A stretch of DNA of 33,105 bases from a virus. The stretch is from IMG/VR virus record IMGVR_UViG_3300040751_000754, positions 1-33,105 of that record; one strand, 5' to 3'. The position numbers and the translations under genes are program-made. The notes beneath the pieces are model-generated. The model worked only from the letters and a program-made list of their open reading frames with translations, did not search any database and was not told where the DNA came from. Of this stretch, positions 22,105-33,100 are shown piece by piece; position 1 is the stretch's first letter, and each line of letters begins with the position of its first letter.

Positions 22105-23589
22105 TTATAGTTCAACGTTTTCAACTTTGAACTCAACGTATTGAGTTTCTGGGTGGAATCCAGCTTCAACCAATGCGAATCTAGACTTAACAGCTACTTT
22201 AGGAGCCATAGTTCCTTCAGCAATTGTTTGTACTGATTCAGCCATTAGGTAAGGCATGAATACTAGACCAGCTGAGTTACCGTCACCTTTTCTACCTACT
22301 AGGATTCTGTGTGTACCAGCAGAATCACCTAGGTAACCTCCGTTGAAAGGAAGTCTAGGGTCAGTGTAAACGTTGATACCTGCTACAGAACCTACTGGGT
22401 AGATTGCACCTGCAACTTGGTTGAACGTGTTAGCCATTGGGTTAGGTACGAAACCTGCGATACCTTGTAGAGCTGAAGCGATTTTAGCATCAACTACTGC
22501 GAAGTTACCAGCACCTCTTCTACCTTTGTTAGCGATAAAGTTAGCTGCAGCAAGAACGTTAGTTAAGATTCTTCTGTGAGCTTCACCTCTAGTTTCACCA
22601 CCGTAGTTAGCAGCTGGAGATAGGTCGATAGCAGCTGAGAATGGGTTGTCAGTAGTGTTAGTAGCTGCAAGAGTTCTCATTGACTTCAAGATGTAGTCGT
22701 TGATAGACTGAGTCAATTCGTTAGTTAATACTGCTTCTACTTGAGCAACAGCGTCAACGCCGAATTGTTTTAGGTCTTGTACTTGCTCTCTAGTTACACC
22801 AGCAGCAACTTGGAAAGTTTCAGCAGCAACTGACTTGCTGAATAGGCTTAAGCCCATTAGCTTGTCTCTAGTTGACTCACCTTTTTCTCTTGAGAAAGGA
22901 AGAGCGTTACCGTCTGCATCAGCATCACCAGTAAATCCTGGGATGTGATCTTCCATAGCTTTTACTAGTTCAACTGAATTAGCATCAGCACCAGCATCTT
23001 CTAAATCAGCAGCTACAGTTGTGTTAGAGCCATCTATAGTACCTACTTTAAAGATTGACTTACCGTCAATTCTTGAAGTTCCTACGAATTCATAGTCACC
23101 GTTAGTACCACCTACAGCAGCGATGTCTGCAGTTCCAGCACCTGAAGCTTTTACGTAAGTTGGAGCTACAGTACCGTCAGCACCGTTTGCTACTGCGTTA
23201 GCAACACCACCTTCGTAAGTGTAGTCTAGGTAAGAAAGTAATCCCATTGGTCCTGCCATTGGTACTACTGGTACTAAGTCTAGACCGATAGTTTGAGCAG
23301 CAACCTGCATTGCTAAAGGAAGCAATGTTGGAGCTTTGTCACCTGAACCGTTTGCACCTGAACCACCTACGTTAGCTGTGCTACCGTTAGCTGGGAAAGA
23401 TACTGCGCCCATACCAGCTAAGTTCATACCTGGGTTAAGTGCCATAATGTTTGCGTCTTCGTACAGCTTGTGATTGTGGCAGTACTCAGACATCCATGCA
23501 AGCTTGTTAGATTCAGTAATACCTGTAGCTTCCTCAATGATAGGAGCCCAAGTGTTTCTGATCTCAGCTTCGTTAATTAAATTTGCCAT
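22105..23589 (-). CDS. 23: Major capsid protein gp23
   Basis: With the start at 23589 the protein has 494 residues (T4: 521). I prefer that ATG over the one at 23625 because its leader (CATTCAAAAATGGC) matches the other late genes and the product begins MANLINEAEIRNTWAPIIEE like capsid precursors. Conserved gp23 features include MAGPMGLLSYLDYTY, GRRGAGNFAVVDAKIASAL, VYTDPRLPFNGGYL, ILVGRKGDGNSAG, FMPYLMAESVQ and VKSRFALVEAG near the C-terminus. T4 gp23 loses an N-terminal propeptide at (L/I)-x-E; candidate sites here include INE, IEE and ITE within the first 30 residues. It forms the capsid hexamers. A strong late element, structured leader and terminator frame it as its own transcript. Confidence 0.95.
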   Translation of the reverse strand: MANLINEAEIRNTWAPIIEEATGITESNKLAWMSEYCHNHKLYEDANIMALNPGMNLAGMGAVSFPANGSTANVGGSGANGSGDKAPTLLPLAMQVAAQTIGLDLVPVVPMAGPMGLLSYLDYTYEGGVANAVANGADGTVAPTYVKASGAGTADIAAVGGTNGDYEFVGTSRIDGKSIFKVGTIDGSNTTVAADLEDAGADANSVELVKAMEDHIPGFTGDADADGNALPFSREKGESTRDKLMGLSLFSKSVAAETFQVAAGVTREQVQDLKQFGVDAVAQVEAVLTNELTQSINDYILKSMRTLAATNTTDNPFSAAIDLSPAANYGGETRGEAHRRILTNVLAAANFIANKGRRGAGNFAVVDAKIASALQGIAGFVPNPMANTFNQVAGAIYPVGSVAGINVYTDPRLPFNGGYLGDSAGTHRILVGRKGDGNSAGLVFMPYLMAESVQTIAEGTMAPKVAVKSRFALVEAGFHPETQYVEFKVENVEL

Positions 23590-23609: not shown

Positions 23610-23665
23610 TTTGTTTATTCGACATTCGATGGGCTTTCTGCTTCTTTCGCCCTATTCGTCGATCA
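23610..23665 (-). promoter_or_regulatory. Structured 5' leader of the capsid mRNA
   Basis: Unlike the short A-rich leaders of other late genes, this one is about 75 bases long and holds paired segments TCGAC/GTCGA outside and GGGC/GCCC inside. It could stabilise the abundant capsid mRNA. Confidence 0.4.
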
Positions 23666-23761: not shown

Positions 23762-25825
23762 TTATTTGTTAAATCTCTTCTTGAATTGCTCAGCGTAACC
23801 AGTTACATCATATCCAAGACCTTTGTTCTCTTCAACTTCTTTAGCTTCTTTAATCATTTCGATCTTCTCCATTACCGGAGCAGCTTCTCTTAGATCTCTA
23901 GTTTGCCAGAAGTTTCTTACTTGATATTCTGTCTCTAGTTTGTGATACTTAGACTGTGCTAAGATTTGATTCTGCTTAGCTTCTGAAAGGTTTGACCATA
24001 CTTCAGCATATTCTGCTGGCATTGCCTCTAGTACGAATGGTTGTGCCTGTCTAGACTCAACGATCATGTTTGATTTTTCGATTAGAGAAACAATCTCAGA
24101 TTCTGTCATGAAACCTCTCTTAGAAACAATTTGTCTAACTTCAGTTTTTGCAGCTTCGTTAAGCTCGTTGTATTTAGACTGAGTTGTTGAAGATACTATT
24201 CTAAAGAATGATGGATTCTCATTCTCAGCTCTAGTTGCACTTTCAACTAAAGCATCAAGCTTAGAAGAAACTTCTTTCTTATATGCTTCTAGTGGGTCAG
24301 TAACACCTTCTTCGCCTTCATCTTCTGGCATCTCGCCATCAGCCTCTTCTTGAGTACCTTTATCATCTTCTGAGTGAGCTTCTTCTGGCTCGTCAACACC
24401 GTCGGCAGCACCTTCAGCACCTTCTTCAGCTTCTTGACCAGCTTCTTCACCATCGTCGCTTACATCACCTTCTTCTGAGTTGTCACCAACTTCTTCAAGG
24501 TCTTCTTCTTCAGCATCAATAACTTCTTCACCTTCGATTCCAGCTTCTTCACCATCATCGCTTACAGAACCTTCTTCTGAGTTGTCACCAACTTCTTCAA
24601 GTTCTTCTTCGTCTTTCTTAACAACATCTTCACCTTCGATTCCAGCTTCTTCACCTTCAACATCACCTTCTTCTTCAACTACTAAGTTTTCGTTGATAGA
24701 TTCAGCAATGTATTCAGCGTATTCTGAGATTGACTGCATGTTTTCTTTTAAGTAGTTAACGTATTCGATGATGCTCTCACCTGAGATAGTATTCTCATTG
24801 TGAGCTTCTGCAAGATAGTTAGCGAAGTCTTTTAGTTTTGAAACTCCTTCAGCAACATGCTCTGTATACTGAATACCCTCGTCTAATTTTTCTGCGATGT
24901 GCTCAGAGTACTGAATAGATTGATCTAACTTTTCAGCTAGAGCCTCAGAGTACTGAATACCTTGATCTGTTTTTTCTGCAACATGCTCGGTGTACTGAAT
25001 AGACTCATCTAGCCTTTCAGCCACATAGCTAACGTACTTTTCAAGTTTGTTAACGCTTTCTGCGATATGGTCGCTGTGACCAATCACTTTAGTAATTTTC
25101 TCATCAACGCCAGCTGCTTCTTCATCAGACTTTGCGTCGATAGCCTCCTTAATTGCCTTAATCTCTTTAGCAAGATAATGTGAGTACTTGTTAAAGTCTT
25201 CAGCTTTTACGAATTCTGCCATGTTTTGATTTTCTTTTATTTGTGTGTCTGTGTTTTCTATAATGTTGGACACTTCTCCCATCTCGTAGATGTATAGTCC
25301 TTCGTCGTTGCTAAAGCCGTAAGACTCATTTACTCTTTTTAGCTCAGCGTTCTCGAAACCGGGATCTGCTACTAGGTCATAAGTAAAAAGCTGCTTGATC
25401 TTAACTTTACCGTTAGATTCAACAGCACCTGCAGCTCTTGACGAGATTTGAAGTGGTACACCAGCGTCAACTAGTGCTTTGGCTTGACGACCAGCATCTG
25501 TATCTAGAAGTCTGATCTTACCACGAACTTCTTTAGTGTCTTTATCGTAGTAAAGTTCTTCTACCACGTGTGAAACGTTCTTTAAAGATGTATCGAATTG
25601 TGTTGGGTGATCTAATTCACCTAATAGTTTAGAGGACTTGATTTTAGCTTGTAGATTCTCAATCTGCGGAACATATTCATCTTCCGTATAAATACGATTG
25701 TTTCTATTTTTTTGATCTATTTGACCAAAAACGCCTTCAAGTACATAGTCCTTGTTTTCATTTTTGTCAACTGTAAGTGCCGATGAAGACATCTCAACAA
25801 TCAACAAATCTTTTCTATTTTTCAT
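23762..25825 (-). CDS. 21: Prohead protease gp21 fused to gp22-like scaffold
   Basis: The 687-residue protein combines functions that T4 splits between genes 21 and 22. Residues 1-165 are a T4 gp21-type serine protease: GVFGQIDQKNRNNRIY (31-46), LGELDHP (68-74, His73), QISSRAAGAV (126-135, Ser128/129) and DLVADPGFENA (150-160). Residues 202-390 are helical and contain 14-residue repeats (YTEHVAEKTDQGIQ type). Residues about 384-520 are extremely acidic with a 34-residue tandem repeat, and 520-687 form a helical end. The scaffold part would shape the prohead core and be degraded by the protease. An internal ATG at residue 202 has a typical late-gene leader and could give free scaffold. It lies between a core-like protein and the capsid, as in T4. 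Confidence 0.9.
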   Translation of the reverse strand: MKNRKDLLIVEMSSSALTVDKNENKDYVLEGVFGQIDQKNRNNRIYTEDEYVPQIENLQAKIKSSKLLGELDHPTQFDTSLKNVSHVVEELYYDKDTKEVRGKIRLLDTDAGRQAKALVDAGVPLQISSRAAGAVESNGKVKIKQLFTYDLVADPGFENAELKRVNESYGFSNDEGLYIYEMGEVSNIIENTDTQIKENQNMAEFVKAEDFNKYSHYLAKEIKAIKEAIDAKSDEEAAGVDEKITKVIGHSDHIAESVNKLEKYVSYVAERLDESIQYTEHVAEKTDQGIQYSEALAEKLDQSIQYSEHIAEKLDEGIQYTEHVAEGVSKLKDFANYLAEAHNENTISGESIIEYVNYLKENMQSISEYAEYIAESINENLVVEEEGDVEGEEAGIEGEDVVKKDEEELEEVGDNSEEGSVSDDGEEAGIEGEEVIDAEEEDLEEVGDNSEEGDVSDDGEEAGQEAEEGAEGAADGVDEPEEAHSEDDKGTQEEADGEMPEDEGEEGVTDPLEAYKKEVSSKLDALVESATRAENENPSFFRIVSSTTQSKYNELNEAAKTEVRQIVSKRGFMTESEIVSLIEKSNMIVESRQAQPFVLEAMPAEYAEVWSNLSEAKQNQILAQSKYHKLETEYQVRNFWQTRDLREAAPVMEKIEMIKEAKEVEENKGLGYDVTGYAEQFKKRFNK
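24449..24652 (-). repeat. Two 102-bp tandem repeats encoding an acidic 34-residue unit
   Basis: Each unit runs from EEAGIEGE through LEEVGDNSEEG to VSDDG (residues 392-425 and 426-459), followed by a third partial EEAG. DNA identity is high, pointing to recent duplication inside the scaffold part. Confidence 0.85.
24827..25036 (-). repeat. 42-bp repeats encoding 14-residue coiled-coil units
   Basis: Five consecutive units follow the pattern Y-(T/S)-x-x-(V/L/I)-AE-x-x-(D)-x-x-I-Q, starting near residue 264 of the protease-scaffold protein. The period of 14 equals two heptads, consistent with a rod built by duplication. Confidence 0.8.
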
Positions 25826-25847: not shown

Positions 25848-25856
25848 ATATATATC
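25848..25856 (-). promoter_or_regulatory. Late promoter element (GATATATAT) for the protease-scaffold gene
   Basis: The minus strand reads GCTGATATATATTAAAAATAG, 22 bases before the ATG, in the 55-base gap after the acidic core protein. Confidence 0.55.
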
Positions 25857-25880
25857 AGCTTTGATTATGTAAATATCTTA

Positions 25881-29459: not shown

Positions 29460-30632
29460 TTATGTCAATTCTGAACTAGGAAGTTCAATTGCTCTCTTCT
29501 CAATTCTCAATGGCTTGTCGTCTTTAAAAACAGTCAGAAGCTCTGTTTTTCCAGCTGAAGAATATTCCATTGCATCGATCAATACCGTAGTACCTTTAGT
29601 TAGACCGTCAAAATCAACTTTAAGAGTAGCTTCTAGATAGCCTTCGTCTCTGCCTAGTTTTTCTTCTTCTAAAGATTCGATCTCTTCACCAATTCTCTTA
29701 ATCTCAGAGCTTAAGAAATGATCTGCTTCTTTAATGGCTGGGATATTTCTATCTGCTTCTGCAAGTCTACCTTTTTGATCCTGTAAGAATGAGATCATCT
29801 CTCTTCTTAAAGCAACTGCATTCTCTCTGTCTTCAACTTGTTCTTTAATACCATCTAACAGATCTTGAACTGAAGCTGTAATATCTGCTCCTGTTTCTTC
29901 AGCAACGTAGTTGATTAATTCTTGTGGCTCCATTTGGATAAACTTGCCAATCTTAGTTGCCTCGTTAATTCTCCAAGCATATACTCTATTCTCAGTACGG
30001 ATTGTAGAAACTTTTACATCTCCAAGTTGAGACTCAGTTACGAATTCTAGGATGTTGTACATACCAAAGTTTTTAGCAGCCATTTCAAATAGATTCAGAA
30101 GACCTTTATCTTCATATCTAATTAATGCTGATGCAAAAGCCTGTTCTGTAACACCTTCTGTGATAACTTCACGGTTGCCAATAAAAGTCTTATTCTCATT
30201 AGCATCGTATTTAAAGGTTACTTGAATACCACTGTTAGTTAACGTTAAGATAGTTTCATTAACTTCTGCTAATTCTTTTTCTAATTCAGTAGTAGCAGCT
30301 TTCTTACCCGACAGCTTAGATTCTTTTAATTCAGCCTTAAGGAATTCAGCTTTATCTTGTAGACCAACTAATTCGTCGTAGTTTTTAGACTTCGCCTCGT
30401 TCAGATCAGTGATCTGTGACTTTTTGTTTAAGTCATAGTTAAACTGAATGCCAGATTCATCTACCTTGAAAGTTTTAAGAGCTTTTGATAGAGCATTAAA
30501 CTCTTCCGATGCTCCAGTCGCCTCTTCAATGACGTTACCAGTAACTTTAAATAGTTTACCAGCTGTCTCAAAAACGTAACCTGCGCCTTGTTTTTCTGTT
30601 GGCGAAATGATGCCTTTTCTTAATTTAGTCAT
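29460..30632 (-). CDS. Unknown structural-type protein with coiled coil
   Basis: I do not recognise this 390-residue acidic protein. The N-terminus (MTKLRKGIISPTEKQGAGYV) leads into alternating beta segments (FKVTGNVIEEATGASEEFN, IQVTFKYDANENKTFIGNRE), a middle helical part with ENRVYAWRINEATKIGKFIQ, and a clear coiled coil at about residues 255-325 (AVALRREMISFLQDQKGRLA and IKRIGEEIESLEEEKLGR). The end is a beta unit (ATLKVDFDGLTKGTTVLIDA). It has its own late promoter and a strong terminator, so it forms a single-gene late transcript, which favours a virion component. It could be a head decoration, internal or tail protein. Confidence 0.8.
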   Translation of the reverse strand: MTKLRKGIISPTEKQGAGYVFETAGKLFKVTGNVIEEATGASEEFNALSKALKTFKVDESGIQFNYDLNKKSQITDLNEAKSKNYDELVGLQDKAEFLKAELKESKLSGKKAATTELEKELAEVNETILTLTNSGIQVTFKYDANENKTFIGNREVITEGVTEQAFASALIRYEDKGLLNLFEMAAKNFGMYNILEFVTESQLGDVKVSTIRTENRVYAWRINEATKIGKFIQMEPQELINYVAEETGADITASVQDLLDGIKEQVEDRENAVALRREMISFLQDQKGRLAEADRNIPAIKEADHFLSSEIKRIGEEIESLEEEKLGRDEGYLEATLKVDFDGLTKGTTVLIDAMEYSSAGKTELLTVFKDDKPLRIEKRAIELPSSELT

Positions 30633-31747: not shown

Positions 31748-33100
31748 TTATAAGTATCTCTGTGCCATTCTTTGCCAGTCAGAAAGACCTGCTCTTTTAA
31801 AGCCTGCAGCTTTTACGAATGTTCTCATTGAAACATCACCTGCATTCTTCATGAACTCATAGATCTCCTCTTTCTCGTTCACTGGCATATCAGTTGGTTC
31901 TAGATGAGGAAGTAACTTCTTCATACGCTCCATTAATGTAGCATCATCTGGTGTCACATCAATTAAGATCGATCTAGAACGAATTGCTCCATCTGGATCT
32001 GCTTTATCTTTCTCTAAGTTAGAGATAAAAATCACACGACCTGCAAATTCAAATTTGTTTGGTACAAGACCTGCTTCTAGTGCGTTGAATTCTGCTTCTG
32101 GATTGTTTTCAAAATCTTTTGGGTCAAATACAATTGATGACTTCTTCATCCAGCTAATCTTTCTAACAGCTTTAGTATCGAGGGCTGCTTTAAGCATATT
32201 ACGACCATTTTCATCTCTAAATACAGAGTCACAATCGTCAAAGACTAGAGTCTTATTTCTAAATTGATAGAACTTCTTGAACATCATAATTGGTGATGCT
32301 GCACCTGAAACCAATATCCAGTCTTCACCTTCTTCAAGACCTTCATCTTGCATTGCTTTTTCAACGTTGTATGTTTTACCAGTACCTGCTCGGCCTGAAA
32401 TAAAGAGTGAGTTGAATGCACCTGCTGCAACTTTTCTTGAGATTTGGTAGATGTCTTCCATAGTCTCCTCTAAGAACTTAACCTTATCATCAAGAGTCTG
32501 TTCGTTTTTAACTTCCATGTTAGATTTAACTTCACCAGAAGAAATATTACGCTTTACCTTTAAGACTGATCTATATGGAATACCCATCTTCTTAGCAATC
32601 TTAGTTACTGGCATCTTCTTGTCTAGAAGCTTATTAATCTCATTGATTTCAGCCTGGCTAAATGCATAGTCTGAAGCAGCTTCGTTAAGAGCATCATATG
32701 ATTCTGCAATCTGCTTAACGTATTTAGCATCCATCAGTCTAACGAATTCATCAATTAACTTAACGATTGGAAACTGATCTGAAGTAACCATAAAGTCAGC
32801 AACTTCAGTATAGTGCTTTGAGTAAAAAGCAAGAGAACCTACAATACCAGGTCCTTTACTTTGACCACCGATTCTAACAGCCTTGTCAGACTTATTAGAG
32901 TAGAGCATAATACCTGGATCTTCAGCACCGTCAATTCTGTGTACTAAAATGTATGGGAATTTCTTGTAGTCATCACCAGTCTTCTTGTTCAAGTATGCCA
33001 TGATAACATCTGCAGCCTTGTCTAACTTAGCGTCAAACATGCCTGTAGTTTTCATTACTTGCGCTTCGTTAAGAAAGCTATTAAAATCTAAAAATTGCAT
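31748..33100 (-). CDS. AAA+ ATPase with helix-turn-helix and capsid-targeting-like N-terminus
   Basis: The 450-residue protein has three parts. Residues 1-135 begin MQFLDFNSFLNEAQ and form a domain of unknown role (YILVHRIDGAEDPGIMLYSN). Residues about 147-186 form a helix-turn-helix: QAEINEINKLLDKKMPVTKI then AKKMGIPYRSVLKVKR. Residues about 225-430 are an AAA+ module with Walker A GRAGTGKT (236-243), Walker B LVFDDCD (285-291), a sensor-like VIFISN and a likely arginine finger in IRSRSILIDV. The start at 33100 leaves five upstream bases in the window. The HTH suggests DNA binding; the role (packaging, transcription or virion remodelling) is unknown. It is three bases upstream of the gp15-like gene. 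Confidence 0.85.
   Translation of the reverse strand: MQFLDFNSFLNEAQVMKTTGMFDAKLDKAADVIMAYLNKKTGDDYKKFPYILVHRIDGAEDPGIMLYSNKSDKAVRIGGQSKGPGIVGSLAFYSKHYTEVADFMVTSDQFPIVKLIDEFVRLMDAKYVKQIAESYDALNEAASDYAFSQAEINEINKLLDKKMPVTKIAKKMGIPYRSVLKVKRNISSGEVKSNMEVKNEQTLDDKVKFLEETMEDIYQISRKVAAGAFNSLFISGRAGTGKTYNVEKAMQDEGLEEGEDWILVSGAASPIMMFKKFYQFRNKTLVFDDCDSVFRDENGRNMLKAALDTKAVRKISWMKKSSIVFDPKDFENNPEAEFNALEAGLVPNKFEFAGRVIFISNLEKDKADPDGAIRSRSILIDVTPDDATLMERMKKLLPHLEPTDMPVNEKEEIYEFMKNAGDVSMRTFVKAAGFKRAGLSDWQRMAQRYL

Follow-up and report, generated by a model that had tools for sequence, protein, structure and literature searches.

The stretch analysed here, referred to as the window, comprises 33,105 nucleotides of viral DNA (IMG/VR record IMGVR_UViG_3300040751_000754), and its minus strand carries a T4-like structural cluster with a portal gene (PF07230), a small acidic open reading frame (ORF), a fused protease-scaffold ORF, the gene for the major capsid protein (MCP) gp23 (PF07068), a terminase gene, a sheath gene and others. 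The fused ORF runs as one uninterrupted frame of 687 codons, and its parts and immediate surroundings are collected in Table 1.

Table 1. Features of the fused ORF and its surroundings, in window positions
Feature	Position	Strand	Remarks
Fused protease-scaffold ORF	23762..25825	-	687 aa, start ATG 25825; frame uninterrupted in every fused relative too
Prohead protease domain, residues 1-165 (Peptidase_S77)	25331..25825	-	Pfam, T4 gp21 5jbl fold match, invariant columns
Linker, residues 166-201	25223..25330	-	conserved NES at 166-168; length and sequence differ between relatives; model confidence low at 184-207
A-rich leader of internal start, ACACAAATAAAAGAAAATCAAAAC	25223..25246	-	inside the protease-scaffold coding frame
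Predicted internal start codon ATG, residue 202 (ATGGCA)	25220..25222	-	Met 98% in 231 distinct relatives; alignment-free 220/221
Predicted scaffold-only product, 486 aa	23762..25222	-	would begin at the internal ATG
Long helical region, residues 208-379	24689..25204	-	AlphaFold2 and alignment; ~14-residue repeats of type IQYxEHxAEKxD
Acidic region, residues 380-510	24296..24688	-	low model confidence; 46% D/E over most
C-terminal helical domain, residues 511-643	23897..24295	-	pLDDT about 75-85 (AlphaFold2)
Promoter-like motif GATATATATT upstream of ORF start	25848..25857	-	motif class in 124/125 relatives; no counterpart before internal ATG
Major capsid protein (gp23), next gene	22105..23589	-	PF07068, E 1e-45; start score 8.03

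The N-terminal part belongs to the prohead proteases. Pfam assigns residues 20-138 to Peptidase_S77, the family of T4 gp21 (E 1.5e-11; 44.6 bits against a cut-off of 27), H73 and S128/S129 are invariant in the domain, and the top PDB matches of an AlphaFold2 model, computed from an alignment restricted to the window and IMG/VR loci, are T4 gp21 (5jbl; E 5.6e-10, target TM 0.71-0.73), with herpesvirus proteases following at weak scores as the second-best fold matches. The whole model is modest (mean pLDDT 59.6, pTM 0.29) and we thus use only its local features, among them a confident beta-rich domain up to about residue 156, a stretch of low confidence at 184-207 and a first scaffold helix that starts 6 residues past the internal Met. 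The C-terminal part lies between protease and MCP, the gp22 position, and we infer its scaffold role from this position, from its helical and acidic make-up and from its enrichment in protease-site motifs. A preliminary description of this DNA had placed a gp21-like protease (residues 1-165) and a gp22-like remainder in a single open frame. The frame, stop-free from 25825 to 23762, and the gp21-like assignment are borne out; kinship of the remainder to gp22 is not detectable, as there is no PHROGs match, hhalign gives a probability of 0.4% for phrog_237 and NCBIfam is also negative. Since the scaffold is not recognisably gp22, to speak of gp21 and gp22 as merged goes beyond the evidence.

The T4 protease cleaves at the motif (L/I)-x-E (PMC9026906). 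Motifs of the form (L/I)xE(A/S/G) number 12 in the scaffold part compared with 2.4 expected and 5 in the MCP compared with 1.0, three of the latter within its first 27 residues, where the expectation comes from a shuffling control that covers composition only, and an E-rich repetitive scaffold favours such motifs. The protease domain and linker of the fused ORF contain none. This distribution supports the view that the C-terminal part is a substrate of the protease, as expected of a core scaffold. Two further ORFs of the window, 29460-30632 and 31748-33100, are also rich in the motif (7 compared with 1.75 and 4 compared with 0.77 expected) and may encode head proteins cleaved by the prohead protease.

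We turn to the ATG at codon 202 (window position 25222). Directly before its ATGGCA lie 24 bases, ACACAAATAAAAGAAAATCAAAAC, 17 of them A. A start matrix drawn from 251 start contexts of the window and of clade-P loci, with the fused ORF excluded, is enriched in A at -16 to -13, -5, -3 and -1, and by this matrix the internal ATG scores 6.55 and ranks fourth of the 730 ATGs of the strand, behind those of the portal (9.78), MCP (8.03) and sheath (7.14) genes. The fused ORF's own start at 25825 scores only 0.93, far below the internal ATG. None of the other in-frame internal ATGs (n=246) reaches 6.55, and 121 of 126 clade-P genes have no rival internal Met that scores as high as the boundary ATG. 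The A-rich leader at ATG 202 is far beyond chance. For the MCP gene, the same scoring makes 23589 (8.03, ATGGCA) very probably the start, in place of the longest-ORF start at 23625.

In Bacteroidota, A-rich leaders replace the Shine-Dalgarno sequence in initiation, and in Flavobacterium johnsoniae A at -3, -6, -12 and -13 are positive determinants of initiation, with no Shine-Dalgarno sequence (PMC6847099). Bacteroidota are also the hosts of most of the named phages nearest by MCP and are probably the host group of these T4-related phages. A leader rich in A is thus the type to expect here.

Scans of IMG/VR and of GenBank phages gave about 340 loci, with 231 distinct fused and 34 distinct split forms. 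In the alignment of the distinct fused proteins Met 202 is 98% conserved, compared with at most about 60% in the linker columns before it (back to an IYE motif) and about 40% in the two columns after it; it is absent in four rows, namely Tenacibaculum phage PTm1 and two Lak types, which belong to other lineages, and locus L268, a true loss. An alignment-free count agrees: of 221 proteins that carry the scaffold N-terminal motif, 220 have a Met no more than 12 residues before it, and the frequency of Met in the 30 residues preceding the internal Met is 1.9%. The peptide before the Met differs among relatives (QIKENQN, EIKEKN, IETNNNKN, IIENQE, TIEENK), the DNA is A-rich throughout, and Met and leader persist where identity in the protease region is down to about 42%. 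The frame across the boundary is preserved too. Clade-P linkers have 15 different lengths, every one in frame and stop-free, and no stop separates the protease and scaffold parts in about 230 distinct fused relatives or in any near relative. With stops missing in near relatives and linker changes staying in frame, the full-length fusion is, to judge from these comparisons, also maintained. The exception at L268 (2501-3145) is a natural one, a fused relative without the internal Met and with no alternative ATG nearby.

Selection on the leader is visible below the level of the protein. When expected numbers of A are obtained by synonymous resampling, with the encoded residues kept fixed and codons drawn by the usage of each gene, the 24 nt before the ATG hold more A than expected in all three sub-clades: 16.2 compared with 14.4 in clade P, 14.8 compared with 13.1 in clade L021 and, with a less A-rich leader, 11.8-11.9 compared with 10.3 in clade L022, which consists of huge phages. 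The corresponding z-scores are about 13 (13.1 in clade P), 7 and 10, values that ignore shared ancestry and so overstate significance; more weight attaches to the recurrence of the excess in separate clades. Over the 8 codons preceding the Met in clade P, Lys is encoded by AAA in 100% of cases, compared with 71% elsewhere in the gene, Ile by ATA in 72% compared with 12%, and Thr by ACA in 69% compared with 33%. A sliding window places the maximum of the excess within codons -12 to -1, at 1.76 extra A in clade P and 1.77 in L021, and the best of 96 other windows per clade reaches 0.93 and 0.89, respectively; two conserved control Mets in clade P give z of 2.4 and 3.3, compared with 13.1 at the site. 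In L022 one C-terminal window is equally high (1.82), and L022 alone is thus no proof. The mRNA is predicted to be open at this point, with a folding energy of -3.4 kcal/mol compared with -8.0 elsewhere in clade P and similar values in all three clades, in each of which just 6-8% of the gene's windows have so little predicted structure. Taken at the nucleotide level, these patterns indicate that the leader of ATG 202 is under selection.

Our reading, to which we give a probability of roughly 85%, is that a single gene and mRNA would yield nested products of two kinds, the protease-scaffold chain in small numbers and the scaffold in large numbers. Initiation at 25825 would give the full chain and initiation at the internal ATG the 486-aa scaffold alone. 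As both would contain the same assembly parts, they could co-assemble into the prohead core; the fused chain would bring in a low dose of protease, and most of the core would consist of the shorter product. Once the prohead is assembled, the protease would cleave (L/I)-x-E sites in the scaffold and in the MCP propeptide, and the fragments would exit. We infer the production of both products, their ratio, their co-assembly and their cleavage; the separate expression of the scaffold from ATG 202 is argued for by the conserved Met, the synonymous excess of A, the weak predicted folding of the mRNA and a context like that of other starts. Both products are probably selected, since a need for the scaffold only would tolerate stops and frameshifts in the linker, and a need for the chain only would leave the leader unconstrained. 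The T4 prohead contains 576 gp22 and about 72 gp21 (PMC9026906), other papers giving 55 or 100 gp21; with such an excess of gp22 over gp21, a stronger inner start fits the stoichiometric need.

The preliminary description had seen at residue 202 an ATGGC with a leader like those of real genes, and the start scores agree with it. It had further suggested that the scaffold might still be expressed separately, in the manner of lambda C/Nu3, and had tied this to conservation of the internal ATG; the ATG is conserved, and such expression offers the best explanation of the four lines of evidence just listed. Of its two options for the site, active or fossil, the same evidence favours the active one, and the fossil is contradicted by selection on the leader in separate sub-clades. 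It had also proposed a merger by loss of a stop codon, to be checked by looking in relatives for a stop between the two parts. As a simple and recent event such a loss is not supported, since no near relative has a stop there.

Other explanations have to be weighed against internal initiation. Only the full-length chain might be made, the protease freeing the scaffold by cutting the linker and the Met being kept for a reason of the protein itself. Such a case is P2 gpO, a single self-cutting protein with a protease at 1-141 and a scaffold at 195-284 (PMC7552001), and C-terminal processing is expected for T4 gp21 (PMC9026906). In agreement with cutting, N-E-S is near-invariant at the start of the linker (92-99%), and of the 84 distinct clade-P linkers 65 contain [IL]xE, compared with 34.5 expected. 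However, the (L/I)xE(A/S/G) site is absent from the linker, the Met sits in the low-confidence stretch with no structural reason visible, and cutting accounts neither for the shifted synonymous codons nor for the weakly folded mRNA or the resemblance to a start context; we thus consider it improbable that cutting replaces the internal start. The two are compatible and may both occur, as in herpesvirus. The herpesvirus pair, on the other hand, consists of two genes, with the start of UL26.5 midway through UL26 (PMC12474303), and one could imagine here as well a separate scaffold mRNA whose promoter lies within the protease part. We consider this very improbable: a TATATA motif, the one motif type that this comparison concerns, precedes the ORF in 124 of 125 relatives but occurs in the 200 nt upstream of the internal ATG in only 7 of 126, which favours translational initiation from the same mRNA. 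Motifs of the GATATATA type, which are probably a late promoter element, stand at 25848-25857 and upstream of many ORFs.

Even less probable is that the internal start is the fossil of a separate scaffold gene left behind when a stop codon was lost. In distant T4-like phages gp21 and the scaffold do have separate genes, the scaffold start following shortly after the end of the protease, but a fossil would decay, whereas Met and leader survive deep divergence despite a changing linker peptide and length and the synonymous sites are constrained. Finally, the A-rich stretch might serve as a frameshift or slippage site rather than as a start, for which an in-frame A AAA AAC before the ATG in some relatives (those of the EIKEKNM type) could speak. 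Instead, CAA AAC or AAT AAA AAC, neither of which forms the heptamer, stands in the window and in most relatives, and the conserved element is the ATG; the heptamer, restricted as it is to some relatives, was rejected, and slippage is the least probable of these explanations, close to negligible.

A tree of the proteases unites those fused proteins that have the internal ATG in a single group (98/92), within which L268 is nested as a loss. PTm1, the Lak types and Chryseobacterium phage MA9V-1, which are fused without such an ATG, and Sphingomonas phage PAU, which is split, lie outside, adjoining the split gp21s. Split forms occur only among distant gp21s and in PAU, whose scaffold differs. Several of the branches there are long and the root is open, so that the tree does not fix how many fusions took place, nor does it place Flavobacterium phage MaF61 firmly. 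This phage, on a long branch, is the one cultured candidate found to have the boundary ATG, and a doubtful one. As L268 and the outer lineages PTm1, Lak and MA9V-1 are fused and have no boundary ATG, the nested start is not indispensable for a fused protein.

In lambda, the Nu3 scaffold is nested in frame as the 3' part of C and is translated from an internal start, and the C protease is of the S49 type, a family unrelated to Peptidase_S77. The locus described here resembles it in having the scaffold in frame, 3' within the protease gene and behind an internal start, and differs in its Peptidase_S77 protease and its A-rich, non-Shine-Dalgarno leader; the likeness is one of mechanism, and kinship is not claimed. 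The roles of C as protease and of Nu3 as scaffold are given in PMC3224144. Herpesvirus UL26/UL26.5 are likewise nested protease and scaffold, with proteases that are weak fold matches after gp21, but UL26.5 ranks as a separate gene, whereas here we find no promoter-like motif and propose internal translation. P2 gpO also joins protease and scaffold in one protein, and a nested scaffold start is not mentioned in the available part of its source (PMC7552001). T4 itself has the same protease family and fold and the same neighbours, gp20 and gp23, but gp21 and gp22 are two separate genes; the second start of T4 gp21 at Met45, which gives a short protease (PMC9026906), is a different thing, no Met lying near that position in the fused protein. 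PTm1 ORF-300 and MA9V-1 gene 151 are likewise annotated as one protease or protease-scaffold protein, and the fused architecture is thus already in databases, but both lack an A-rich ATG at the boundary. We found no report of an internal scaffold start in T4-like phages in the open-access literature, a weak absence. With the scaffold part in frame and 3' in the protease ORF, and with a conserved internal start that carries initiation signals, the sequence comparisons give good support to placing this gene among the nested protease/scaffold genes, as in lambda C/Nu3 and in herpesvirus UL26/UL26.5 (for the latter, PMC12474303), as a variant in which the protease is of the S77 family and the A-rich start of the Bacteroidota type.

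Protease and scaffold are needed in unequal amounts in the prohead, and a nested start would be a one-gene solution that lambda and herpesviruses reach with different parts. Its occurrence in a lineage of T4-type proteases, where an A-rich start stands in for Shine-Dalgarno, would make this dosage idea testable in Bacteroidota phages, and the conserved leader would represent a natural internal ribosome-entry sequence of the Bacteroidota type within a coding frame. Annotation shows one ORF, and the predicted second product is missed. More tentatively, and with the odds somewhat against it, the nested gene could be the old, standard arrangement of an entire branch of T4-related phages, including relatives with genomes of more than 600 kb, in which the strength of the internal start would set the scaffold/protease ratio and so be part of head assembly, a lambda- or herpes-like solution within the T4 lineage.

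By eye, records of more than 600 kb (L020, L022) appear richer in copies of the ~14-residue scaffold-helix repeats (24689-25204 in the window), and the copy number could relate to head size. Very long fused proteases with many NES motifs, of 1347 aa in MA9V-1 (L346:2502-6545) and 1404 aa in MaF61 (L027:893-5107), are perhaps polyproteins cut into many pieces, and that of MA9V-1 has an additional A-rich ATGGCA at residue 661.
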